From assembly GCA_020152595.1 (NCBI GenBank), contig JAIGNY010000327.1, positions 2,677,001-2,741,000 of the forward strand: 64,000 nucleotides of DNA. Direction: 5' to 3'. Under the pieces are notes generated by a model, which did not search any database, was not told the origin of the DNA, and worked only from the letters and a program-made list of their open reading frames with translations. The DNA is from Chiridota heheva. Its lineage: Eukaryota > Echinodermata > Holothuroidea > Apodida > Chiridotidae. The translations under genes and the position numbers were made by a program. Shown here one piece after another: positions 20,258 to 56,400 of this stretch. Within the stretch, counting starts at the first letter, position 1. Every line of letters begins with the position of its first letter.

Positions 20258-20442
20258 TCACACACTCAAATTCTTTATGATTTCTTTGATTGAACAGTAC
20301 ACGCCTGTTCCCATGCCAGCAAAACCAAAAATTATTAAAAAGACATCTTTGACCAGGATGAGTGGGTGCAGGTCGTTCTTCTTCAAGCTGATTTGGATAG
20401 CACATGGGAGGATAAATGCCAACATGGTACTGCCAATAGCAC
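20258..20442 (-). CDS. Transporter terminal coding exon
   Basis: Acceptor CTTTATTCCCAG. It encodes AIGSTMLAFILPCAIQISLK, KNDLHPLILVKDVFLIIFGF, then AGMGTGVYCSIKEIIKNLSV and stop: the last helices and short C-tail of the family. The frame upstream to 20614 is intron read-through. Confidence 0.9.
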
Positions 20443-23400
20443 CTGGGAATAAAGAAGAGACAATCCCTTTAGAGTGAGGTTTTGATGGCATAACAATTTC
20501 TACTACTAATGTCATCCCCAAAACAATGTTTGTTACCCACCCATGGTCATAGGGACTGGAAGGAAGTACAAATTGTACACAAAAATAAAGTAAAATTAAG
20601 TTTTTGAAGACCAAACTGTAGGTGGGCTTAATTCGGTTAAAAACGACTGGAAATGGAACAAAGATGAATTTTTCTTACGAGATCTCGTAATCCATTTTTT
20701 GACACGGTGTTGTGAATCAGTTGTAAGGCAGCACACCTGAATCACTTTCCGCTATATAGAGGGACAAGGGGATGCAAACGGTATGCGAACATCCAGTACT
20801 GTACATGCTGTGGTCTTCAATGCATGGTATGTACGTTGCACTGACAGTTGATAATGCATGTTTTGCTACATATGATCTTCATCATGATGAAAATAAATTT
20901 TCCAGGGGGCCAAGTACCGTTTTGGCCCCCCCCAATATGGAAGGTCTAACAAAATGATTTTGAAAAGCCAAATTCCATGGCTCCTTTTCTTCTGGAAATC
21001 TTCAATTTTCTTGCAATTTCCTTCATTTTCCAAAAATATTGTTTTTCTTAATGTTCGAGGAGTTTCTTATCATTTTCAGGACATTTCCTAATTTTTTGTA
21101 AAACATCCTTCATTCTCGTAAAATTAGCTTTAATTTTCTTCAATTTTCGTGCAATTTTCTTCATTTTCCGTAAAGTTTCTTTATTTTCATGAAAATTGCT
21201 TCAGTTTTTGTGAAATTTTCTTCATTTTCATGAAATTTTCCCAAATTTTTGAAAAATTTCCTTACAATTGCTGGAAATGTTCTTCAATTTTCACAAAATT
21301 TCATTCCTTTTTGTAAAGTTTTCTTCAATTTTCATGATATTGCTTTTTCTTCAACTTCAATTTTCGGGAAATATTTCAATAATTTTACAACCTTGCAAAT
21401 ACTTTTTGGACCGTGATAAGAGATTCATACATTTTTGTAGTTGGGTTCATTGACACAAATGATAAAATCTCCTCAACCTCCCCCACCTTCCAATGTAAAA
21501 TACTTTCCTATGCAGTTGTCAATGTTAAATTCAGATTGTTAATGTCAATGTTAAATTCAGATTGTTAACAAAAGCCAAGAGAAAATACTTCAAACACCAA
21601 ATTCTTTTTAATGTAAAGTACAAGCCATTTGTATTTTTTTATTGAAAAAACATTTATGTAATTTAACCTTAATCAGGTAATCTCCTTGCTCCACAATGCC
21701 CCCCCCCCAACAAAGTTGCTTCGCGATGCCCCTGTACCCACCTAATCAAATTCCTACCTGGTCCAATAATATTTCATGCTGTTCATAATCTATATATGCA
21801 ATTACAACCCGATCAGGATTGTGATATATCAATATTTCAATATATTTTTTATTTTGACCAGTTTGGTCATACATCACAAAATTAACATAAAGTGAAAATG
21901 CTAGCTGAAACTTTGAACAGACGTTACTTAGAAACTACAAGAACTGTTTCCAAAATTCAAAGACTGTTCCATCTCAAAATTGAAGCTCTTTTTGATGAGC
22001 TGTTCAGCTCTTTACTTCCAGAGAAGTAAATCTTTCCAAGCCTTTGGACCAATGTGTATCCCAGGGATGCAGATGGATGAAAGTAGTCGGGTTCGTTGAG
22101 ACTCCCTAGACGAGACAATATCCAGGTACTGTAGTAAGCTGTTACTGATGTAAGAGGTTGGAAAATGTTGTTTTTCTTGTTTAGATCGTATCATACCAAA
22201 ATGTGTGATTTTAGCATAGTTAGTTTTTTTTACTTGCATGTTGCTTCTTCATGTGGGCTTTGAAATAAGTATTTCTTTTTGCCTATAGTTTGCCATTTGT
22301 GTTTTCTCAAGTTTGCAAATAATGTGCTGCAAGTGTATTTTATACGCTCTATGCCATTTCTAAACTGAATTAATATTATTTTCCATCTTCTTATGTTGAT
22401 TGCTAAATTTTATTTTGTTAAGACGTTTAAATCCTGACTGAAATGATTTTACCTGGTCTCTTTAACCATAAAGCTATTAACTGAGATAATAATAGCTCCA
22501 TGCTTGAACTTACTCACTATTACTGTAATGAAACCATTTATTTTGATACTTTCCTCAGTTTAGACTTCCCTTTGTGTATTCAGTTACATCTAAGATGGTC
22601 ATTTTCTTTGTGTATTCAGTTACATCTTAGGTGGTCATTTTCTTTATCTTGTCTTTAATTAGTGGTTTTGGTTAGTTTTCCTTCCTGTTTTCATCAGTCC
22701 ATCAAAGTCTGGACAGAAGAAGGGTTTTCTTTGTTTAGAGTATTATGGGATAGCCAAATGTAATATTATGGGATAGCCAAATGTAATATTATGGGATAGG
22801 CCACATGTTCTGGTGAGAAGTAATTTTAGATTTTCAGCAGACACTTTCAGGAGGCCATAGAGTAAAGTTGGACTATCACCATGTAGCTTATCAAATACCA
22901 AGTAATATCTTTTCACTCTTGTAAATATTGTACAGTACGGTATGTGGAGTAGAAATAGACTTTGCACTGTAGATGAAGTTGAAATATTACTGTGATGTTC
23001 TTTCATCTCCGTTTTTATATATCTCATGAACTGCGTAAGAATCCACCAGCATTTGCAGTCCTCATACTGCAGATGCTGGCACATCCCAAAGGACATCACG
23101 TCTCGTCCCCCCCTTACAAATTGGTAGTAGAGGTGGGGCTATGGATATTTTGGGATGGATTCTATGCTGTTTCCTTGGACATACATGTATCTTCAAATCG
23201 ATTTAAAATGGACTGACTATTCCTGACATGTACCTCTTGTTAACACCTGGACCATTACAATTTGGAGCAGTCATATCATCTGTGATCTTCGTTTAATACC
23301 TGTGTACATGTAGCTGATTTGTTTTACTTACTCCTGAAGGTTATCATCGTGCATGAACATGATTTTGTTTATTTGATTCAACTCTGGACTGACTTAAGGG

Positions 23401-35400: not shown

Positions 35401-38400
35401 AAATATCTGGACAGACATAGCTTTTTGAGCAGAAGTTTTATCATTTACATATATGCACAAATTTCTACTGACAACCTGAATGCCTACATTAAGATGAACC
35501 AGACATCACAAACGATACATCCCCTCACCATTAATAACATGCTTTCCAGCCTCTGTCACACCTGCCATCCCACCCTCTGTTCCACATATCATACCATGCT
35601 ACTTCCTCTCCACAGGAAATCATACATGAAATCCAGATACCATTCCACAACATGATCTGTATGCCATCACACCTGCAATCAAGATGACATCCCACCATAT
35701 GCCTTGCCACCCTGTCCGATAAACAATGCCACCTTGTTCCATATACCATGCCACCATGTCTCACGTGCCATCCCTCCCTGTCCCAAATACCATGCCACCT
35801 TGTCCCACACCCCATCAGTCCCTGTACCATCCTACCCTGTCCCACATGCCATCCTTCCATGTACCACGTGCCATCCCTCCCCATCCTACAGGCTATTCCA
35901 CCATGTCCCACATGCTATTCCACTGTCCCATATGCCATCCCACCTGAAATCCAGACGGCATGCTATCCTGTCTCACGTCATTACAATGTCCCCCGTATCA
36001 TCCCACCTTGTCCCACATGCCATCCCAGCCTGTCATAAATGCCCATGACACTACCTTGTTTCACATGTCATGTTACACTGTCCCCACATGCTATCCCACC
36101 CTGTCCTATATGCCATGACATCCTGTCCCACATTTCATGGTACCCATACCCACATGCCACCCTGTCCCACATGCCATCCCACCTGTCCCACATTTCATCC
36201 CATCCCGTACCCCATACCATTCCACCTTCATCCTAATTCCTACATCTACCATTTTCCACCCAACATTCTTTCCTTTCACTCCCATTCCCTCACTTCTATC
36301 AACTCAATATACTGTACCTCATTCACCTACCATCCCCATTCACCTACCATTCCCCTTCACCTACCATCCCCATTCACCTACCATCCCCCTTCACCTACCA
36401 TCCCCCTTCATCTACAATCTACAATCCTCCATTCACCTACCATCCTCTATTCCCCAACATGATCCATTCACCATACCATTCCCCATTCACCTAACATCCC
36501 CCATTCACCTAACATCCCCATTCACCTACCATCCCCATTCACTTACCATCATTCATTCACCTACTATCCCAACCCACCTTTTGCCATCCACTCATCTACC
36601 AAAGATACTCTTAAGCAACTCATCAATCCAACTTTCACTGTAACCTCCACTCTCTCCATTGCATTACAGCCCCCTTTTTCCCAGCTTTAACTTAAATCTG
36701 ACACTTCAAATAGAAACACGCTCAAATTTTCCCCCTTATAAACCAGATAGAGCTGATTTTTCCCGAAAAATAGAATGAAAATTCAGCACAGATTAATTTG
36801 CAAATTATCATAAGTCTATTATGTCCACTCTATTCAAGCAAAGACATTATTTTTTTGCTTTTCATTCACAAGACACTTTATTATAAAATCCATCCAGTCG
36901 TCAGATCTGTTATTCAACTTTTAAAAATCAGTACAGGTTAATTTGCAGATTATCGTAAGTCTATTATGTGTCCCTCTATTCAAAAAAATACTTGTTTTTT
37001 TTTGCTATTAATTTACAAGACACTTCATTATAAATTCCATTCACTTAAATTCTATTATTTAACTTTTTTTCATATGAGAACAAATCCTTTAATTGCTGCT
37101 ATTCAAGTCTTAAATGCATTTGTTCTTCTTTCTATATAAATTTTTTCTCATACAAATAGTTAAAATTCCTTTCGTAGGGCAGCAATCTTTTGTTCCCTAG
37201 TAGCTGAACAGTGCAAGAGGCTGGACGGACAATAGATGTAAACAGACAGACGAATGAACGGTAAAGACGCAATATCCCATTCGTTGCCAAGTGGATAAGG
37301 AATTGGAGAGTTGAATGCGCGGTGACAAGTAGCTTTTAAGGTTGAAAAGATGAAAGGGATGTACGCAGTAAGAACAATTATATTCTCTTTTGACATTCTG
37401 TATATATTAATCTGGTTGGTGACTTGGTGTGTTTATGTATAAGTTGGTTTATTTTCTAACTGATTGAATCGTTATTTTTCTTTCAATTCTGATGTTAGTG
37501 TATTTATGGTATAAGCTGACGAAATGTTCACGTCATACTTCATGTAACAGTTATTTTCCCTTAAATTTTGATGTTCATAATTACAATACAATTCAAGTAA
37601 TATTTGTATATTTAAATATACTTTAAATTTATTCGAATATTTAAACGTTCAACTATTCTGTCAGGCGAAAATCTTTGGAATAATTTGTCACAAAATAAAC
37701 CAAGCCCAACCAGTCTCCACTTTTTAAAGATTATTTCAATCAAAGCTCCTTCTGAATTAAAAGTAATAATGTATCAAGGAGTTGTTGTAATTTGTTTTAT
37801 TTATTTTCTTCTCGGGTGAGGGGAATGGGGAGTGATTTGTGTGGATTTTTTTCAGCATGAGTGAGTGTGTGCTTAGGTTATTCGTAATAATTCAAGATTT
37901 CCATAAATTATTCAAGGTTTCCATCAACTTTATTTTCACAAATTATATCATTCCATGGTTAATTTTTGCTTTTTGTTAAAAAAATTTTTTTCTAAAGCTG
38001 GACTAAATTGTACTTTGTAAAGTTCTTTTATTAATATCTGCAATTGTGGAAAACAAATCTTGAATATTACATACCTGAACCCCAAAAATCTTGAATATCA
38101 CATGCCTGAACCCCAAAAATCTTGAATATCACATGCCTGAACCCCAAAAATCTTGAATATCACATGCCTGAACCTCAAAAATCTTGAATATCACATGCCT
38201 GAACCCCAAAAATCTTGAATATCACATGCCTGAACCCCAAAAATCTTGAATATCACATGCCTGAACCCCAAAAATCTTGAATATCACATACCTGAACCCC
38301 AAAAATCTTGAATATCACATGCCTGAACCCCAAAAATCTTGAATATCACATGCCTGAACCCCAAAAATCTTGAATATCACATACCTGAACCCCAAAAATC

Positions 38401-41400
38401 TTGAATATCACATGCCTGAACCCCAAAAATCTTGAATATCACATGCCTGAACCCCAAAAATCTTGAATATCACATGCCTGAACCCCAAAAATCTTGAATA
38501 TCACATGCCTGAACCCCAAAAATCTTGAATATCACATGCCTGAACCCCAAAAATCTTGAATATCACATGCCTGAACCCCAAAAATCTTGAATATCACATA
38601 CCTGAACCCCAAAAATCTTGAATATCACATGCCTGAACCCCAAAAATCTTGAATATCACATGCCTGAACCCCAAAAATCTTGAATATCACATACCTGAAC
38701 CCCATATACATCCTTCTATAAGCTCAACAACTATAAAATTCTGCAATGGAAAGGTTAGCAGAACACCAATGCAAATGGTGATGTTAGTGACATAAGAAAG
38801 CACTGATCCTTCTGGTATACTCCATATAATGACTTGTTGAACCTCAGAGCCAAAGTAAAGATACCCTAAAACTCCAATACTTGCATACACAAGCGTGAAT
38901 AGGATAAGCGCCATATTAAGCAGAAGTGGGTATTTTGATCTACTGCCCTCCATGCTTGATTCTATTGGAATGATCTGGGGAAGAAAAGGTTATATTTACA
39001 AACAATAGTACCCATTAAAGATTGACTGATAGATTGGAACGTATTGGTACATGACATAATTTCGAAATTACAAGAAAATCAAAAGTTTTGAGGTTCCCAT
39101 GCACAACATGGATTTTTTCCTTCAACAAAATAGTATTAAGCCCTGCCCACTATCCATATAACTGAAATTCAACATTCTCTACCATGAACATGTACGAACT
39201 AACTAACAAGATAACTGTAATTATACCAAATATGAAGTAAAACAAGTTGTTAAAATATGTGCATTTCAAGATTTTGTTACATCAAACCCCGCCTACTCAT
39301 TAACATGCATGACATCACCACCAAAAACAATAGGGCATATCCACAGACCATGAACTATCTGTGTACCACATATGACATGAATTCTGGTTATCATTCTTGA
39401 GATATTGTGTTTTAAGTTCCTTTCAACAAAATCATATTAAGCCCCGCCCACTACACACATGAATGAAATTCAACAGTTTTTATACCATAAACATGTACAT
39501 GTACACACCATCTAACATCATATTTATACCACATATGAAACCAAACAGGCATGTACAATACTTAAAATATGAGCATTGCAAGATATTTAACATTAAGCTC
39601 CGCCTACTCTTTAATAAACATAAAATCACCACCAAAACAATAGGGTACATCTTCACACCATAGGCTATCTGTGTACCACATATGACTTGAATCCAGTTTG
39701 TTGTTCTTTAGATATCGTGTTTACAATATATTTTCAGCAAAATCATATTAAGCCCGCCCACTACGCACATTAATGAAAATCAACGTTTTTATACCATGAA
39801 GATGTACACACTAGCTAACATCATAACTGTACCACACATGAAACAAAACAGATAGGTGGCTGTTAGAATATGAGCATTTGAAGATTTTTACATTAAGCCA
39901 CGCCTACTAAATATTATGTAAGACATAACATCCAAAACAATAGGGCACATTAATGGACTATCTGTGTACCACATACGACATGAATCCACTGTACTGATTG
40001 TGTTTACAGTACAAGCTCAGCATCACAAACATACATACATAACACATACGCCATTATGACTGCATAGGTTCCTGATGCTATCGCATCTGAACCAAAAAGG
40101 ATACAAGATTTAAAGAAGCTAAACTAAGAGGTGTATTAACAGTGTAAAAGGAACTTTAAAGGAGAAAGTCAAATATTCTAGTTTGATATTAGATATGATG
40201 GAGAATTACAAAATAAACCAATGAACAAAACCCCATAATAAAATCTGATTCATAATTCCATTAAGTTACCAGTTTTCAAAAGTTGTAACATGGACGCTGC
40301 CATTTTGTCTAATTAGCTATTAAAATCATGCCAATGAAGACATAATTTGCCTCATGTGCTATCACACATAATGCATTTCTTTAGAATTCTCGGTGAATTT
40401 TTTTCTCTCCAAAATACTTTGAAATGAAATTGTTAGGGCTTGAATCATTAATATATATATACACATGAAAACTTACAGATCTCAAGCATGCAAAGGAAAA
40501 ATATTTCTTCGAAGTTAGAAAATTTATAATAGAAATTACATTAATATTCTAATCTGTACTAGGTGTATGACATCATTTTTAGAGGGCTTATGAACAAAAT
40601 GGCCACTTTCATGTAAGTTTATATTGACAGAAGTTATAACACAACAAGATTACAGGAGAAGTCAGAAGAAGGGTTAGTCACCCCATAAAAAGCCCAAACT
40701 AACAACACCACCACCACAAAAAAAAAAAAGATGCCCAGACTTAGTAAAGAACTTATCAATGTTGACTTTGAAATTGTGAACAGAATTGCAGCTAACTACC
40801 CACTCAGGCAAACCATTCCACTCATCAACAACTCTTTGCAAAAAGCTAAAATGCCGAATATTTATCAGTGAGAACACTTTGGTCAACTTTAAACTGTTAC
40901 TACGTGTCACATGAGGATTAGCTGAAACATGCAAGAACAAACAGGAAGTCAAAGCATCACTACTAGATAGGAATTTAAAAACCTTAATTATATCGCCACG
41001 TACTCTTCTTAACTCAAGCGTGGTCAAACCAAGAATTTGCAACCTAGATTCATAAAAAAGGTTCTTTACTTCGGGAATAAGTCTACTGGCTTTTCGCTGA
41101 ACCTGCTCCAAAATGAACTTATCCTTTTCATAAAAGGGACTCCAAGCCTGAATAGCATACTCAAGGTGGGGCTTCACTAACTGATTATACAAATTAAGAA
41201 CAACCTCTTTACCAAGAAAACAAAAATTCGTTTTAATCAAACCAAGCATCCTATTTGCCCTTGCAGCTGCTAAAGCACACTGTTTAGAAGGCGTCAGATT
41301 GCTAGAAATGACGACACCTAGATCCCTTTCTTGATCAACACAACCAAGATTTGAACCATTCATGCAGTAATCAAAAGCTAAATTGCTCTGACCAAAATGA

Positions 41401-44400
41401 ATAACTTTGCATTTATCAACATTGAATGACATCTGACATGTTTGGGACCAAGAAACTAACTAATCCAGATCAGTTTGCAAAAGTGAAGAATCCCTAGCAT
41501 CATCAACAATCCTGTACAGCTTAGTGTCATCAGCAAATTTACAAATCCTGGAGTAAAGGGAAACATCAACATCATTAATGAAAATTAAGAAAAGAAGTGG
41601 ACCCAATACAGAACCCTGAGGAACACCACTTGTAACCTTCTTCCATGGAGATACTTCACCATTAACAACAACTCTTTGTGACCTGTCAACTAATCAAGAA
41701 TATAAGCAACTGGCACACTTTCCCTTCACACCAAGCACTCTTGTTTTCATTATGAGCCTACCCAATGGAACCTTATCAAATGCTTTTTTGAAAACTAAAT
41801 AGATAACATCCACATTATGACCAGAATCAACTAGTTTAGTAACATCATCAAGAAACTCCAATAAATCAGAAACACAAGACCTCTTTAATAGGTAAGAACC
41901 CATGCTGGGACAAATTCAACAAACCATTGACCAGTAAATAATGTAGTGCAAGATCCTTAACAATGGACTCCATGACCTTGCACACAACACTAGTAAGACT
42001 CACTGGCCTATAGTTACAAGCAAACTGTGGTCACCTTTTTTTAAAATATGAGTAACATTAGCAGTTCTCCAATCACTAGGAACAATACCAACATCAAAGC
42101 ACTTTAAAAAGATAATACTCAGGGGAGCAGAAAGAACATCAGAACACTCACATAAGACAGCAGGATGTCTACCATCTGGACCAAGTGCTTTATTTGAATT
42201 CAAACCCTTCAACTTCTGAGACACAACATCAACTAAATCAACATTCTTAATGGATACTGGAGAGCGCAAACTAAGATAATCCACAAGATCATCAGCAGGG
42301 GACTCCTTAGTAAAAACAGACACAAAGTAGTCATTCGAAACCTCAGCCATATCCTTATTGATAGTAACACCGTCATTACCCTGAAGGGGACCAACAACCT
42401 CCTTGGTTTTTTGCTTTGAGTGAACATAAGAATGAAACGACTTAGGATTAATCTTAACCTCTTTGGACAAACATTTTTCAAAAAGCACTTTAGTATCTCT
42501 TATCAAACCCTTTGTAAACTTTTCATGATCCCTATACCTAGCAAACTCCACAGGACACGCACTGTGTTTGAACCAAGGCCACAACTTTTTCTTTTTCTGA
42601 ATAGCCTGCAAAACCTCCCAAGACATCCACACTGGCCGATTACGCCTACAGACTTTCTTTAATGGGACAAACCTATTTACACCCTCTAAAACTATAGTTT
42701 AGATAACATCCCATGCTTTAGAAGGATCTAAGTCACGGAGCAAAGAGGTCCAATCAAATGACAAATTATCCTGAAGTGCAGCAAAGTCAGCATTCTTTAA
42801 ATCTAAAACCAGTTTAATAGCTAAAGAAGCTTTTGTGAAACAATACAGATCAAAACTAATGAGGTCATGATCACTACACCCTACCTTACCGCTACTTAGC
42901 ACATTTCTAACCATACTTTCTTTACTACTGAAAATCATATCAAGATAATTACTACCACGTGTGGGGAATAACACATGCTGGGTGAAAAGGCATTCAGATA
43001 CAGTTTGTTTGTTTGTTTGATGAGGTCTTAACGGCACCACGACAACGAAGGTCAAATTGTGCCTGAGAGGTCAGATCATTTTAGAGGTAGTAAGGAAAGA
43101 GACCAGGGGGAGAATGAGAGAAACTCAAGAACAAAAGCCAGAAAGCTGTGATCGAGAGAGGAGGTGCATGGGTAAAACAAAAACAAAGTAGAGAGGGGGT
43201 GGAAGAGGAGAATTAAATATGGTTGTAGAGGGATGCATGCTGAAGGAAGGAGATTATTTTATCTGGAGGATTTTTTTGGAAGAACTCAGCAATTGAGTTG
43301 TGGGGAGCAAGGGAAGTTCTAGGAAGGTTGTACAGGGGGCAAGCAAGGAGAACGTGTTGGATTGTGAGGATGCAGTGGCAATTGTTACAGAGGGGTTGGG
43401 GGGAACCAATAAGGAGGTGGGAGTGAGTGAGGTGGGTGTGACCAATTCTAAGACGGGTATTATGAACGTTGTCGATTCGAGAAAGGTTGCTGATGGTGGA
43501 TTTGATCGGGATTGTGGGCTGGATAACATGGAGTTTGTTATCAATTTGGAAGTTCCATAAGGTTTGCCAGCGGTCACGAACAAGAGAAGCGATAAGCGGT
43601 TTGATGTCAGAGAGGGTTTTGGGAAAAGGGGAAGGGAGGAGGTTAAGGGCAAGCTTAGCGGCTGTATCAGCCCTGTCATTGCCAGGGATGCCAACATGGC
43701 TGGGTATCCAGAAGAAAGAACACTTTTCCTGCAGAGGGTGGGAGAAAAGAGTTTCGGAGGAGGAGGTGGCAGGTGAGGTTATCCCATTTAAGATTGAGTA
43801 ATGAAGTAAGAACAGCCTTTGAGTCAGAGAAAATGGCAAAGTGACTAAGAGGAGAGTACTCAATAAAGTTGAGGGCGAGGAGAATGGCCTTAGCCTCGGC
43901 TGAAAAGATGGATGAGTGGTCAGGAAGTCTGCTACTAAGGGTGATGTCTTGGATGATGGCAGCAGCAGCTGTCTTGTTGCCTTCCTTAGAGCCATCAGTA
44001 TAGATGGAGGTGTAATTTGAGAGTTGGTCTTTGATTTGGTTGTGGAGATTGATGAAGAGGTTAGGGTGAGTTTGAGTTTTGTTATAAGTGGAGAGGTCTA
44101 GGTGGACAGAAGGAAGGGGGGTGGCCCAAGGCGGAAAAGTGGGCCAGGAGTAGGTGCCGAGAGTGGCGGGGTTGATGCCAAGTTGAAAGAGGTCTGATTT
44201 AATGCGTAAGCTGAAGGGAGGCGATAGGGTTTTAGTCCTATCAAAGAGGGAGGAGAAATTGGGGTACCTAATGAGGTTGTAAACAGGGTTCTGGGTGTTG
44301 GTGAGGACTCTAAAAGCATAGGAGAGGCTAAGCTTTTTACATCTAAGTAGAAAGGGGGGTTCATTGGCTTCAACATGAAGGCTAGTGATTGGGGAGGTCC

Positions 44401-47400
44401 TGTAGGCTCCTAGACAAAGCCTGAAGGCTTCATTTTGGATGGTGTTAATGTGGTTGAGGTATGAGTTGTGAGCGACACAGTAAACAATATTGCCATAGTC
44501 AAGCTTGGCACGAATGGTGAGCCTGAAAATTTTGAGGAGAGCAAAGCGGTTCCAGAAAATCTTTACAATGAAAACCACTAGTACAAAGATTCCAATCAAT
44601 GTCTGGAAAACTAATGTCCCCAAAAACAATAACCCTCCTAGAAGCAACTTTCCTGAAGCAGTCAAGCAATTTCTGATTGTTCTCTGGACTAGAATTTGGT
44701 GATCTACAGTATACACAGCACCAACAGCCACTGAACTACCAAAATCGCCATCAACAATAAAGCTCACACCATAGGCAATTTAAAAAACCAAAAAAAAAAC
44801 TGAGCACTTATATCTCTACAATTAAAACTGTCTTTTACAAACAATGAAACGCCACCTCCTTTACCATTGAGAGTATCGAATCTGTCTAGCCTAAAAACTG
44901 AGTAAGCTGGAATATGTACCTCTCAGTGAATCACTAATTTCACTATAAATCCAACTCTCCGTAATACCAATTATATCAGGTCTACTAATTAAAACTTCAG
45001 CCAGAAGCTCATCTTGCTTAGTAAAAATGCTACAAACATTTGAAAACATAGCCTTAAATCGACCACTAGAATCCTTATCCCCAGAAACATGCCCGACAGG
45101 TGGGTTTAAACTCTTACCCCCGTGACTAGTTTAAAGGAGTCAGATCCTTAATTGCCCTATTGACACCCCTAGCAAGAACACAAGCACCTTTCCTAGTTAA
45201 ATGCAAACCATCTCTTATGAACCAATCAACCTAATATTCAAATTTATGCCAGATAATTACAAAACCGAACTCAAACAGATGACAAATACTCTAGCCAACT
45301 ATTGATTAACAATATCTTATCTATCATGAAGGAAGTACCCCTACGCGGCAACAGACCAACAACTAGAACCCTACAGCCTGTGTCCTTCAACTTGAATAAC
45401 AAATCCATGAAACTCCGCAACAAAATTAACATTTCTCCTTGAAATATCATTGGAACCAATTAAAACTACGACGATATCTTTACCTTTACATCAAGTGTCT
45501 ACACGATAACTAACATCATCAACTCTAGCCCCTAAAAGACACACCCTGATCCTTCTACTACGATCTACTCCACAAAACTCTTGTGTCAATATAAACCTTA
45601 CAAGTGAATCCCCTATCCATAACACATTATCCCTAACATAATCCACAGGCAACGTACTAGATGTTTGAATAAATTACAAAATATGTGCTTAATTGTTTTG
45701 CATGATGTGAAATCTCTTTATATGACTAATAATTGTTATTTCTATCATATTAAATGAAGAAAACGCCAGACTTGATGTCTCCTTGAAGGGGTTAATTATA
45801 GAAGCAGAATGTGTTCCATTGTTCTTTAATAATCTTAAATGTTTTCTGCACCATTTTCTTTCATTTAAAGTCCTCATTCATATCAAATAAACTTGCTTGA
45901 CCACTGCACTAATCCTTTAAACTCAGAGATTACAGTACTGTTGCATTTTCACCTCTTTCATATCAGATAAACATGCACCAGCACGACACTACTCCTTAAG
46001 ATCTTTACAATCAAAAAAAGTCTTTGCAATCAATGATACCTTCATTGCAAGGACATTAATGCTGGGGAAAAGAGAGGGCGCTTTATCTCATGGGGAGGGG
46101 GAAAGAAGGAAGGGGAGGTGACATACTATAAAATCAGACAAATATGCCGCCTGTACAAGATTTTCTGTGGGGTTCAAAGAGATCTCATATGGGGAAAATG
46201 TTTCCAGTAGCGCCCCTTAGAGCACTGTGACTGCTCAATTGCAACTGTAACTATGAAATGAATACATAATTATTATTTAAAAATACTTACTGTGCCAATT
46301 CCTTCATACGCAGAGGTTACTTGACCAAAAAAGATTGGGAATGTTTTGAAATTAACCCACACGATGTCTTCTGCAACATGGAAACCTGAAAATGAAAAAA
46401 AAAAAATATTTAAGAAAACATTAAGTCCTGTATTGGGTTACAATAGACAGCAAGCTGTCATGATGGTCCTGTATTGGGTTACAATAGACAGCAAGCTGTC
46501 ATGATGGTCCTGTATTGGGTTACAATAGACAGAAAGCTGTCATGATGGTACTGTGTTGCGTAACAATAGATAGCAAGCTGTCACGATGGTCCTGTATTGG
46601 TTTACAATAGACAGCAAGCTGTCAGGATGGTCTTGCATTGGGTTACAATAGACATCAAGCTGTTATGATGGTCCGGTATTGGGTTACAATAGACAGCAAG
46701 CTGTCATGATGGTCCGGTATTGGGTTACAATAAACAGCAAGCTGTCATCATGGTGCAAACATCTTTCCAAAACTGTAAATAAAGCTGGTCAAAGGCTTGG
46801 AGCACTATGAAAAGTTGAAGATGAGCTTGTTACTGAAGGCAGAGTTACTGTCTACAAAGCTCAGGTTTGAAGTATCATGGTATATGCATGCTTAGCTTGA
46901 ATGAATGCACCCCCCCCCCCTCCTCCCCACAACCCTGGGTCTCCTCAACACCATTTAAAGGTGGGCAATGAAAATTAAAGGTATAGACAAGGTTATTACC
47001 ACAAACATGCTCCATCAACATAGAAGACAGGTTGTAGCAGTAACTGCAAACTAATCACAGCCCCAAGACCTTTAACCGATTTTGCCTGCAACCTATGTCA
47101 GATGGCGTACCACAAGATCAAGTACATCTGAACCTGATCATGCTGCTTGCCTGCAGCTACTGTAGGACAAACTCTCTGGACAGAAACTCCATACTACCAC
47201 CAGAACATGGAATACCCATCGCGTAGATGTTGTTGGTAACATAACAGATAACATCCAAGATTTCAAGACAATCGTTTCTTCCTGTTCATGAGATGAGGGT
47301 CTTATTCTGTTTGTAATGGTTGACAGAGTATGGAATTTCCTTTACAATTACCACCAGCTATTTTAGTTCATACTATTGATTTAATCAGGTTTGGTTATGT

Positions 47401-50400: not shown

Positions 50401-53400
50401 TTGTAATAAAGTGTTTGTGGTGAGTGTTTATGAAGGACATTTGTATCAGTTTATGCAAAGTGGTTGCTACCTGTCCATATACCTTTAATTCCTTACTCAT
50501 TCTCAACCTCCTTTGCTACTAACCAGCTGGTAAGCTCAATTGGTAGAGCACCCGCTTTTCAGTCAGGTCATGGGATCGAATCCTGGTCGAGTCGTATCGA
50601 AGACGACTTAAAATGGGACCTGCTGCCTTCTTGACTGGTGCTCAGCAGTTAAAGAGTGGAGCAGGGTTTTGAACACTACAGCCGTTGCACCGTGAAATGT
50701 GGCAGCATGTTGCAGTTTTGAGCTATGTTTGTTTGTAACACGTTTTTGAATATACCTATATAGAAAGGGTGCTATATAAAATCATTGTATTATTATATTA
50801 TTCTAATGCTTCATCAATCCATTACTGTGAAAATGTATATTTTTTTTTTATCATTTTGAATTTGCAAGGACTGATAAAATTTAAAATATTAAAGACTTAC
50901 CATCACCAAGAATGTGAAAGAGAATGCTGAAATAACCCACAAACACAGAAACGTTGGCTAAGAGACTGAGTACACCCATGTCTCGTATGCTCCTGATCAT
51001 CGCAAACACCACAAAAAAGGGAAACGGAATAAGGGTCAAATATAAATAGACGGTGTTCCGATTCCGCGATGAAAGGTTCAGAGTAAAAAATTTCCAATCG
51101 TCGTCAGCTTCACCACCATAATAATGAGCACCACTTCCATCAAACATCACTTCGGAATGGTATTGCATTGCGGATGATTGACCATGGAAGGAAGGTTTGA
51201 TTATTGTTTCGTTGACTTGGTTCGGCTCCGGGAATATAATATCCTCTAAGGTGTTCCCAAGAAATACAAAATATCCAATGCAGAAGCCAAACTGAGTTAC
51301 AAATAGGGCTATAACAGTTAAGTAATAACCAATATTCCCAAGACTGGCCTTGGCAACGTCACCATACTCTATATGCTTCTCAATATATTCAGGCTGCGCG
51401 TTGAGGAGGCGGCTTGACACATATCCTTGAAGTGATGCTGGTTCTTCAATGATTCTGCGGACGACTTCCTTCTTGCATTTTACAATTAGAGAACAGCAGT
51501 GTATAGTTGCATATGATATGAAAACAACACCAGCAAGGCCGAGCTAAAAGACCAAAATTAGACATTTTGAATTATTTATAATTTACACCAATAAGAAACA
51601 ATCATGCACGAAGGAAGATGGACCTACTAAGCAGGAAGGTGGAGACCTATAAGGTGAAGGCAGACCTACCAAGTGGGAGACAGAGGCACAGAAAGCATGG
51701 TTGCTGGGAGGTGGAAGACAAAATAAAAACTGCCCTCAGAGTATTTTACCTTCTTAGCACCTGAGAGGATTTTACCTTCTCAGCCCCCTTAGAAGATTTT
51801 ACTTTCTCAGCCCTCCTGAGAGGATTTTTTATCTTCTCAGCCTCCAGAGAGGACTTGACCTTCTCAGCCTCTTGAAAGGATTTTACCTTCTCAGCCACCT
51901 TAGATGATTTTACCTCCTCAGCCCTCTGATAAGATTTTACCTTCTCAGCCCCCTTAGAAGATTTTACCTTTTCAGCCCCCCTTGAGAGGATTATACCTTC
52001 TCAGCCCCCTTAGAATATTTTACCTTCTCAGTCATCTGAGAGGATTTAACCTTCTCAGCCTCCTGAGAGGACTTTACCTTCTCAGCCTCCTGAGAGATTT
52101 TGACCTTCTCAGCCCCCGTAGTAGGTTTGACCTTCTCAGCCCCCTTAGTAGATTTGACCTTCTCTGCCCCCTGAGAGGATTTTACCTGCTCAGCCTCCTG
52201 AGAGGATTTTACCTTCTCAGCCTTCTGAGAGGATTTTACTTTCTCAGCCTGCGGAGAGATTTTGACCTTCTCAGCCCCCTTAGCAGATTTTACCTGCTCA
52301 GCCTTCTGAGAGGATTTTACCTTCACAGCCCCCTGAGAGGATTTTACCTTCTCAGCTCCCATGAGAGGATTTTACATTCTCAGACCCCTGAGAGGATTTT
52401 ACCTTCTTAGCCTCCTGAGAAGATTTTACCTTCTCAGCCCCCTGAGAGGATTTTACCTTCTTAGCCCCCATGAGAGGATTTTACATTCTCAGACCACTGA
52501 GAGGATTTTACCTTCTCAGCCCCCTGAGAGGATTTTACCTTCTCAGCACCCTGAGGGTTTTACTTTCTCATCCCCCTGAGAGGATTTTTCTTCTCATCCC
52601 TCATAGTAGATTCTACTTTCTCAGCCCCCTGAGAGGATTTTACCTTCTCAGCCCCCTTAGAAGATTTTACTTTCTCAGCCCTCCTGAGAGGATTTTTTAT
52701 CTTCTCAGCCTCCAGAGAGGACTTGACCTTCTCAGCCTCTTGAAAGGATTTTACCTTCTCAGCCACCTTAGATGATTTTACCTCCTCAGCCCTCTGATAA
52801 GATTTTACCTTCTCAGCCCCTTAGAAGATTTTACCTTTTCAGCCCCCCTTGAGAGGATTATACCTTCTCAGCCCCCTTAGAATATTTTACCTTCTCAGTC
52901 ATCTGAGAGGATTTAACCTTCTCAGCCTCCTGAGAGGACTTTACCTTCTCAGCCTCCTGAGAGATTTTGACCTTCTCAGCCCCCGTAGTAGGTTTGACCT
53001 TCTCAGCCCCCTTAGTAGATTTGACCTTCTCTGCCCCTGAGAGGATTTTACCTGCTCAGCCTCCTGAGAGGATTTTACCTTCTCAGCCTTCTGAGAGGAT
53101 TTTACTTTCTCAGCCTGCGGAGAGATTTTGACCTTCTCAGCCCCTTAGCAGATTTTACCTGCTCAGCCTTCTGAGAGGATTTTACCTTCACAGCCCCTGA
53201 GAGGATTTTACCTTCTCAGCTCCCATGAGAGGATTTTACATTCTCAGACCCTGAGAGGATTTTACCTTTAGCCTCCTGAGAAGATTTTACCTTCTCAGCC
53301 CCTGAGAGGATTTTACCTTCTTAGCCCCCATGAGAGGATTTTACATTCTCAGACCACTGAGAGGATTTTACCTTCTCAGCCCCCTGAGAGGATTTTACCT

Positions 53401-56400
53401 TCTCAGCACCCTGAGGGTTTTACTTTCTCATCCCCCTGAGAGGATTTTACTTTCTCAGCCTTGGAGAGGATTTTACCTTCTCAGCCCCCTGAAAGGATTT
53501 TACCTCCTCAGCCCCTTGAAAGGATTTCACCTTCTCAGCCCCCTGAGGATTTTACTTTCTCAGCCCCTGAGAGGACTTTACCTTCTCAGCCCCCTGAGAG
53601 GATTTTACCTTCTTAGCCCCCATGAGAGGATTTTACATTCTCAGACCACTGAGAGGATTTTACTTTCTCAGCCTTGGAGAGGATTTTACATTCTCAGACC
53701 ACTGAGAGGATTTTACCTTCTCAGCCCCCTGAGAGGATTTTACCTTCTCAGCCCCCTGAGAGGATTTTACCTTCTCAGACCCCTGAGAGGATTTTACATT
53801 CTCAGCCCCCTGAGAGTATTTTACATTCTCAGACCCCTGAGAGGATTTTACCTTCTCAGCCCCCTGAGAGGATTTTACATTCTCAGACCACTGAGAGGAT
53901 TTTACATTCTCAGACCACTGAGAGGATTTTACCTTCTCAGCCCCCTGAGAGGATTTTACCTTCTCAGCACCCTGAGGATTTTACATTCTCAGACCCCTGA
54001 GAGGATTTTACATTCTCAGACCCCTGAGAGGATTTTACCTTCTCAGATCCCTGAGAGGATTTTACCTTCTCAGACCCCTGAGAGGATTTTACCTTCTCAG
54101 CCCCCTGAGAGGATTTTACATTCTCAGACCCCTGAGAGGATTTTACCTTCTCAGCCCCCTGAGAGGATTTTACATTCTCAGACCACTGAGAGGATTTTAC
54201 CTTCTCAGCCCCCTGAGAGGATTTTACATTCTCAGCACCCTGAGGATTTTACATTCTCAGACCCCTGAGAGGATTTTACATTCTCAGACCACTGAGAGGA
54301 TTTTACCTTCTCAGCCCCCTGAGAGGATTTCACCTTCTCAGCCCCCTGAGAGGATTTTACTTTCTCAGCCCCCATAAGAGGATTTTACATTCTCAGACCC
54401 CTGAGAGGATTTGACCTTCTCAGCCCCCTGAGAGGATTTTACATTCTCAGACCACTGAGAGGATTTTACCTTCTCAGCCCCCTGAGAGGATTTTACCTTC
54501 TCAGCCCCCTGAGAGGATTTTACCTTCTCAGACCCCTGAGAGGATTTTTACATTCTCAGCCCCTGAGAGTATTTTACATTCTCAGACCCCTGAGAGGATT
54601 TTACCTTCTCAGCCCCCTGAGAGGATTTTACATTCTCAGACCACTGAGAGGATTTTACATTCTCAGACCACTGAGAGGATTTTACCTTCTCAGCCCCTGA
54701 GAGGATTTTACCTTCTCAGCACCTGAGGATTTTACATTCTCAGACCCTGAGAGGATTTTACATTCTCAGACCCTGAGAGGATTTTACCTTCTCAGACCCC
54801 TGAAAGGATTTTACCTTCTCAGCCTCCTGAGAGGATTTTACCTTCTCAGCCCCCTGAGAGGATTTTACCTTCTTAGCCCCATGAGAGGATTTTACCTTCT
54901 CAGCCCCCAGAGAGAATTTTACATTCTCAGACCACTGAGAGGATTTTACCTTCTCAGCCCCCTGAGAGGATTTTACATTCTCAGCACCCTGAGGATTTTA
55001 CATTCTCAGACCCCTGAGAGGATTTTACATTCTCAGACCACTGAGAGGATTTTACCTTCTCAGCCCCCTGAGAGGATTTCACCTTCTCAGCCCCCTGAGA
55101 GGATTTTACTTTCTCAGCCCCCATAAGAGGATTTTACATTCTCAGACCCCTGAGAGGATTTGACCTCCTCAGCTCCCTGAGAGGAATTTACATTCTTAGT
55201 TGCATGTTATCTTCCCTGTTGGGAGGTAAATATGCATATTCTTTTTTTTTTTTAAATTGAAGGAAAATTGCTAGGCAAAAAGTAAATCTCAGTAGGCTAT
55301 TCCCTTTGTATGAGATATGCCCAAGAGCAGCACTAGAAACATAATTTACCATTCCTTGCTTGGAGAGGAACTACTGCACAACTACATGTATCCAAATGAT
55401 GGCGTTGAATTAATTATACAATTTCCCCCAGTTCTGAAGGTGTCAAAAATCTTCCCACAAAAAATCACGACAGAAATAATATTAATGTAGTGAATACATC
55501 TTTACATACTTCCCTCTTCCACAATTGAATGTACTTTTCACATCGCACAATTACATGGGAGACATTTTTAGAGCACATATTTACTACATATATTGTTGTT
55601 TCTTGTGCTATTTCTATGAACAACTTCAAAGAATTATTGGTGAAGTACCAAGTCACGATATTTTTATTGGAGACGCTAATGCTAAAGTTGGTGGAGTAAA
55701 TAGGGGTAGAGAAAGTGTAATGGAGAAAGAAGGTCTGGGAATTATGAACGACAATAGTTAATGATTTGCAGACTTATGTGAGGTTAATGAACTAATCATT
55801 GGAGGTACTATGTTCAAGCATAGAGACATACACAAATACACTGACTGCCTCAAATGGCAATACTAGAAACCAAATTGACCATTTCACAACATCTCGGAAA
55901 CATAGAAGGTCTTTGTTGGATGTAAGACCCAAAAGAGAAGCCTATATACACAGTGACCACAATCTGCTAATTGGAAATATCAGAGTTAAACTGAGAGGTG
56001 AGAAGAAAAACAGCCAAACATCAAGACCCATTTTTGAGTCCAACAGACTAAAATGTGTAGAAGTAAGACATGACTACAAGAAAGAGCTGAACAAGAATAT
56101 GAGGAGAGACAGGAATGATAGTATAAATGAAAAGTGGACAAACATTAAAACAGCACATATCAATGCTGCAAAGAAAGTATTAGGGAAAAGGAAAGTAAGC
56201 TTGCATGGTTTTGCCCTGATGTGAAACCAGTCTGTTTCCAAAACAAAAACCGCTTGTAACCGCAAAACCAGTTTGTCACTCGTAATGTAAACGAACTTTG
56301 AACATTAAGTGTATTACACTAACTGTGCACTGTTAAATGATAGCAGCTAATGATGTTTGTATTTTCTGTAAATAATGATCAAAATGATAACAGAGGCAAT

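Follow-up and report, generated by a model that had tools for sequence, protein, structure and literature searches.

A 21-unit minisatellite across a splice donor of a probable amino-acid transporter gene in Chiridota heheva

We describe a tandem array of 21 units of 31 bp that begins over the end of an exon in the genome of Chiridota heheva. The array lies in a 64,000-nucleotide stretch of contig JAIGNY010000327.1 (positions 2,677,001 to 2,741,000; hereafter the window, in which position 1 is the first letter), and the host gene, judged by homology, is probably an SLC36-like amino-acid transporter. The first unit contains the presumed donor of the exon that we call exon 4, and each following unit repeats that donor within the intron. 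We consider it probable that this is a minisatellite of the "mirage" type known from lancelets, that it grew in place from the donor, that the exon-proximal donor is used and that the other copies leave with the intron. Arrays of this kind are already known, and the present case is a clean further example. Its new detail is that the unit looks composite: 9 bases of it are of exon origin and 5 come from the donor, and the remainder is a dispersed-repeat tip.

Tandem Repeats Finder calls the array at 38055-38704, with a period of 31, 21.0 copies, 98% matches and 0% indels. Our unit-by-unit reading of the minus strand gives 651 bp, consisting of 9 nt of exon and 642 nt of intron. The original prediction, which did not state that the host gene is on the minus strand, also placed 21 units against the exon; its intronic length of 646 nt has to be replaced by 642. 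Exon 4 ends GGGGTTCAG|GTATGT, and this exon-end/donor junction recurs in all 21 units in an exact, gapless register. Each unit has 9 exon-type and 22 intron-type bases and so spans the boundary, the exon end itself being predicted. Apart from a single donor base, 19 of the 21 units are identical; unit 18 has one additional change and unit 21 has two. At that donor base, five units read CAG|GT and 16 read CAG|GC, the same counts as first reported. With numbering that starts at the exon, the GT forms are units 1, 4, 11, 14 and 21. The GT positions 8, 11, 18 and 21 given previously are therefore units 14, 11, 4 and 1 in this numbering, and the terminal unit is also GT. A single full-identity copy of the array locus was listed for the assembly in the genome search.

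Where does the intronic part of the unit come from? When window positions 38000-39000 were used to search the genome, 22 of the 28 rows clustered within some 60 bases at the array's distal edge (38004-38072). Eleven of these 22 rows stop at 38068-38069. The other boundary of the distal-edge rows lies near 38011, at a point where bases present in the compared copies are missing from the window copy. The matches outline a dispersed repeat of about 0.5 kb, extending from 38069 down to about 37538, with 71% identity to the copy at locus L007 and 67% to the copy at L005. The repeat tip in L005 reads TAATATTCAAGATTT, which equals the tail of unit 21 and shares with it an A where units 1-20 have G. 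Since the unit tail matches the repeat that continues behind unit 21, the array has probably grown in place, with unit 21 beside the original intron. The presence of exon end, donor and repeat tip in one unit also supports the original proposal of growth from the donor.

The unit itself appears to be private to this locus. An exact 26-mer of the GT unit has four matches in the 1.1-Gb assembly, and all four are inside the array, which is the number expected from units 1, 4, 11 and 14. Unlinked copies without an exon, named in the original prediction as the evidence that would count against it, were seen neither in this search, which covered exact copies of the GT form, nor above 66% identity in the array part of the whole-region genome search. 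We considered whether the unit belongs to a dispersed minisatellite family and rejected this: the five other rows overlapping the array come from four loci and reach only 64-66% identity. Those four loci carry arrays with different units, although a short core, ATGTGATAT, is common to three of them.

Two further observations concern the dispersed repeat. At 38038-38057, on the minus strand and a few dozen bases past the last donor, the sequence of the repeat behind the array is TTTGTTTTCCACAATTGCAG; by eye, it resembles a 3' splice site. On contig C3268 (207765-213539), six matches to the tip region are spaced about 1.14-1.16 kb apart, suggesting that part of the dispersed element was tandemly amplified.

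How would the array have grown? Shifted by 10 units, the pattern of GT units matches itself in all 11 comparisons. Full agreement at this shift is found in 9 of the 20,349 placements of five GT units, or 9 of 969 when both ends are fixed as GT, and 42 of 20,349 are perfectly periodic when every period between 2 and 10 is allowed. The exact 10-unit period supports the earlier suggestion that a ten-unit block was duplicated. Both edges of the array are GT, so that this form is probably the older one. Among the variants, just the donor-weakening change from GT to GC has spread through the array, although one spread variant among 31 positions is no proof of selection for GC. When the edges are compared as for a mirage-type array, two private changes are found in unit 21 and none in unit 1, so one edge is divergent and not both. 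The interior is homogenised, with unit 18 being the only interior unit that has a private change.

These patterns suggest the following sequence of events. First, the dispersed repeat would have been placed about 5 bases into the intron behind the exon-4 donor. Next, a 31-bp stretch made up of the final 9 bases of the exon, the donor and the repeat tip would have been tandemly duplicated, through slippage or unequal exchange. GT may then have changed to GC in one interior copy, and further copying together with duplication of the ten-unit block would have carried GC to 16 of the 21 units. Both edge units would have retained GT throughout. We infer this order from the units themselves, and either selection or drift may account for the loss of GT.

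Which of the 21 donors is used? Using a weight matrix and the U1 5' end sequence, we obtained scores of 9.89 bits for the GT form and 3.77 bits for the GC form, and U1 pairing energies of -9.2 and -5.1 kcal/mol, respectively. The pairing energies support the original view of GC as the weaker donor. A donor as good as that of the GT unit occurred in 1.8% of 500 circular dinucleotide shuffles of the GT form of the unit. We also asked this of nine other arrays in the window; none was below 5%, the lowest being 5.8%. We had considered a general enrichment of donors in the minisatellites of the window, but of the 10 arrays only this one, scored as the GT unit, was below the 5% level. RNA structure was considered as a way of hiding the decoys, and we place no weight on it. 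Folding of a 331-nt piece was better than that of 100 shuffled versions (z -4.27), and units 1 and 21 are the two most open units at plfold windows of 120 and 400, though not at 200. Splicing would proceed from unit 1, since the 5'-most competent site would be taken first, as reported for human F7, and the other 20 copies would leave with the intron. From this analysis we expect that unit 1 is used and that the remaining donors are silent decoys, most of them weakened to GC.

Distal donors were originally thought mostly to shift the frame or add stops. This needs correction: all 20 would meet one and the same in-frame TGA, which lies two codons beyond the unit 1 junction and already within unit 1. 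Because this stop is shared by all 20, distal use would truncate the protein. The distance from the stop to the joint is 23 nt with donor 2 and 54 nt with donor 3. Nonsense-mediated decay is expected where a stop lies well upstream of the joint. We expect decay of the misspliced RNA for most distal donors, perhaps not for donor 2.

These consequences bear on whether the array could be a working regulator, in which tissue-specific use of distal donors would yield truncated or decaying RNA and so tune the level of the transporter, with array length as the dial. A strong GT donor is kept in four distal units, and the stop in unit 1 would make every distal RNA a truncated product, as such a device would have it. 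However, the commonest variant in the array weakens its donors, conservation of the array cannot be demonstrated, and lancelet mirages are reported not to disturb splicing (PMC3087553, PMC3902484). We judge a regulatory role very unlikely. The original prediction had left a choice between tuning of splicing, which finds no support here, and buffering by donor choice, which agrees with the published lancelet and F7 cases.

Several observations weigh against growth from the donor and use of unit 1. The repeat tip matches the unit closely in one of the three compared copies (L005), the matches in L007 and L008 being loose, and at one of three folding settings (window 200) unit 1 has no accessibility edge. 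Paralogs give a divided answer on the age of the exon end. At paralog exons L019 and L021 the intron is phase 1 and lies no more than about one codon from the exon-4 end, by our own reckoning in Pfam profile coordinates, and the next exons of paralog C3615 (L013 and L014) start, by reading, in phase 1. However, paralog exon L024, which ends near the same profile position, is phase 0, the end of a fourth paralog exon (L012) could not be placed, and an ungapped scan of the exon ends over their last 22 residues gave best shifts of -4 and 7 for L019 and L021, not 0. Following that scan, we withdrew the claim that the paralog introns occupy exactly the identical column; what remains is the same phase and a position within about one codon in two of four paralog exons. 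These results support an ancestral exon end, short of proof.

If the exon end were not ancestral, the array could have existed in the intron beforehand, and the exon could later have been extended into its first unit, taking its end from the repeat. The ungapped scan and the different phase of L024 leave room for such a capture, a possible older in-frame site of the same phase, GAT|GTATAT, lies 15 nt upstream, and other arrays in the genome have the core ATGTGATATTCA in common. Against this, GAT|GTATAT scores 0.66 bits compared with 9.89, the exact GT 26-mer is confined to this array, arrays elsewhere show just 64-66% identity, and the two paralogs have their intron in the same phase and nearly the same place. 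We therefore consider capture of the donor unlikely and favor growth from a donor that was already in use.

The remaining points on the unfavorable side come from the last exon of the gene. Exons 2, 3 and 4 agree in phase and make one open reading frame, and exon 4 is coding, with a match to PF01490 (Aa_trans) at E 3.9e-16. The in-frame gene model scores 131.7 bits against PF01490, and its nearest relative of solved structure is PAT1 (Proton-coupled amino acid transporter 1, 9v3t; E 8e-31). Searches for exon 1 gave nothing convincing. The open frame of the last exon alone scores 21.5 bits, below the Pfam cut-off of 25.6. Of its two candidate acceptors, the one at 20556 is better supported by homology and needs phase 2, whereas the exon-4 donor is phase 1. 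The acceptor at 20647 preserves the frame at the cost of 31 added residues, and with this insertion the PAT1 match drops to 110.4 bits from 120.4 and the Pfam score to 131.7 from 134.2, the shorter protein (acceptor 20556) having been joined by hand for both comparisons. A missed small exon, an assembly base error or a different donor four bases on, TAT|GTGATA, would each explain the mismatch.

Were TAT|GTGATA, which also lies within the unit, the working donor, the difference between GT and GC at the CAG site would be irrelevant to splicing. This donor is phase 2 and matches the acceptor at 20556; by hand count, it places 21 residues between the glutamate of ELIE and the IV of NIVLG, the same number as in paralog C3615 if L021 and L013 are joined. 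However, it scores 0.92 bits compared with 9.89, L019 and L021 read as phase 1, as do the exons L013 and L014 that follow in C3615, and an overlooked small exon or an erroneous base in the assembly would account for the phase mismatch equally well. We find it quite unlikely that this site is the donor and retain CAG|GTATGT of unit 1.

Similar arrangements have been described before. Lancelet mirage minisatellites occur in Adh3, the globin genes BflGb6 and BflGb9, troponin C and PGBD5; lancelets are the hosts in the accessible portions of these reports (PMC3087553, PMC3902484), one of which calls the mechanism that generates mirages unclear (PMC3087553). As in the lancelet arrays, the unit here spans an exon-intron boundary and carries splice signals. 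The present array differs from them in its 21 units of 31 bp (98% matches), in its mostly GC donors, and in the match between the intronic part of its unit and a dispersed-repeat tip. A repeat in human F7 has fewer units than 21. It lies in intron 7, where several 37-bp repeats each contain a 5' splice site and the used donor is in the first; this most upstream donor is reported to be the only one normally used (PMC6627357). Both cases have tandem intronic repeats that each carry a donor, but the unit here is 31 bp rather than 37 bp, there are 21 units with GC decoys, and donor use is predicted.

Human UBC contains tandem dual-specific AGGT splice sites that are potential donors or acceptors (PMC10809524). 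Our array likewise repeats an AG|GT motif able in principle to serve as either. The UBC repeats are coding ubiquitin monomers, whereas the present repeats are intronic and 31 bp long, with a 3' splice-site context that is weak by eye. A self-erasing array, in which TTCAG|GYATGT of each unit doubles as donor and acceptor, seems to us most improbable. If it were true, the extension left by use of a distal donor would have the unit 1 donor at one end and the AG of unit k at the other, a second splice between these two would restore the exact normal mRNA at any array length, and recursive splicing within the array would regenerate the same junction, allowing growth without cost.

Table 1. Positions in the window of the array, its donors and the exons of the host gene
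Feature	Position	Strand	Remarks
31-bp tandem array, 21 units	38053..38703	minus	unit 1 = 38703-38673, unit 21 = 38083-38053; first 9 nt belong to exon 4
Unit 1 donor CAG|GTATGT, presumed used site	38689..38697	minus	first intron base 38694; 9.89 of 13.22 bits, weight matrix
Unit 4 GT decoy donor	38596..38604	minus	unit-by-unit reading
Unit 11 GT decoy donor	38379..38387	minus	unit-by-unit reading
Unit 14 GT decoy donor	38286..38294	minus	unit-by-unit reading
Unit 21 GT donor	38069..38077	minus	tail runs on into dispersed repeat; read as original junction
In-frame TGA met by donors 2 to 21	38687..38689	minus	same stop codon in 20/20 distal cases
Dispersed repeat directly behind unit 21	37538..38069	minus	genome matches; tip appears to supply intronic part of unit
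Transporter exon (exon 4)	38695..38974	minus	phase 0 start, end TGG GGT TCA G| (phase 1); acceptor CCCCAG, in-frame coding
Exon 3 of gene model	46291..46385	minus	splice signals; links exons 2 and 4 in frame
Exon 2 of gene model	50901..51543	minus	open frame 50884-51543 matches PF01490, E 7.2e-12
Last exon	20258..20646	minus	acceptor at 20647 or 20556; stop 20258-20260

Minisatellites make up 23% of the window, in 11 arrays. In a stricter count over 30 loci, two of them from the window, 21 loci were under 5%. In repeat-rich DNA, some arrays should by chance begin over a splice site and be tolerated as long as the first copy works. Two further arrays lie close to exons of the same gene: one at 46425-46754, 40 bp upstream of exon 3, and one at 51733-55196, 190 bp upstream of exon 2, with about 129 units of 27 bp and long in-frame open stretches on the minus strand. 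The intron between exons 3 and 4 contains reverse-transcriptase-like open frames on the minus strand (40674-45130) that by eye resemble a non-LTR retrotransposon, and about 0.3 kb upstream of exon 4 there is a 310-bp tandem repeat (39250-39908; 2.2 copies, 79% matches). At 443-2310, a 24-bp array of about 78 units has a minus-strand open frame of 407 residues, largely (IDTAYAAP)n, through much of its length. Outside the window, positions 207-348 of locus L020 hold five 29-bp units, four of which begin with the strong donor-like CAGGTGAGT; an exon adjoining this five-unit array was sought and none could be shown.

Why describe another array of a known kind? Because the kind is known, its interest is moderate, and two details are worth keeping: the composite unit, in which a likely origin is recorded, and the fact that GC has spread among the decoys. 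The composite unit suggests how such arrays begin, namely with an exon end joined to the tip of a repeat element. A host that is not a lancelet would widen the range of mirages beyond the hosts described in the accessible literature. Finally, 21 near-identical donors in near-identical context, differing mainly in position and in GT or GC, amount to a natural experiment on how the spliceosome chooses its site.

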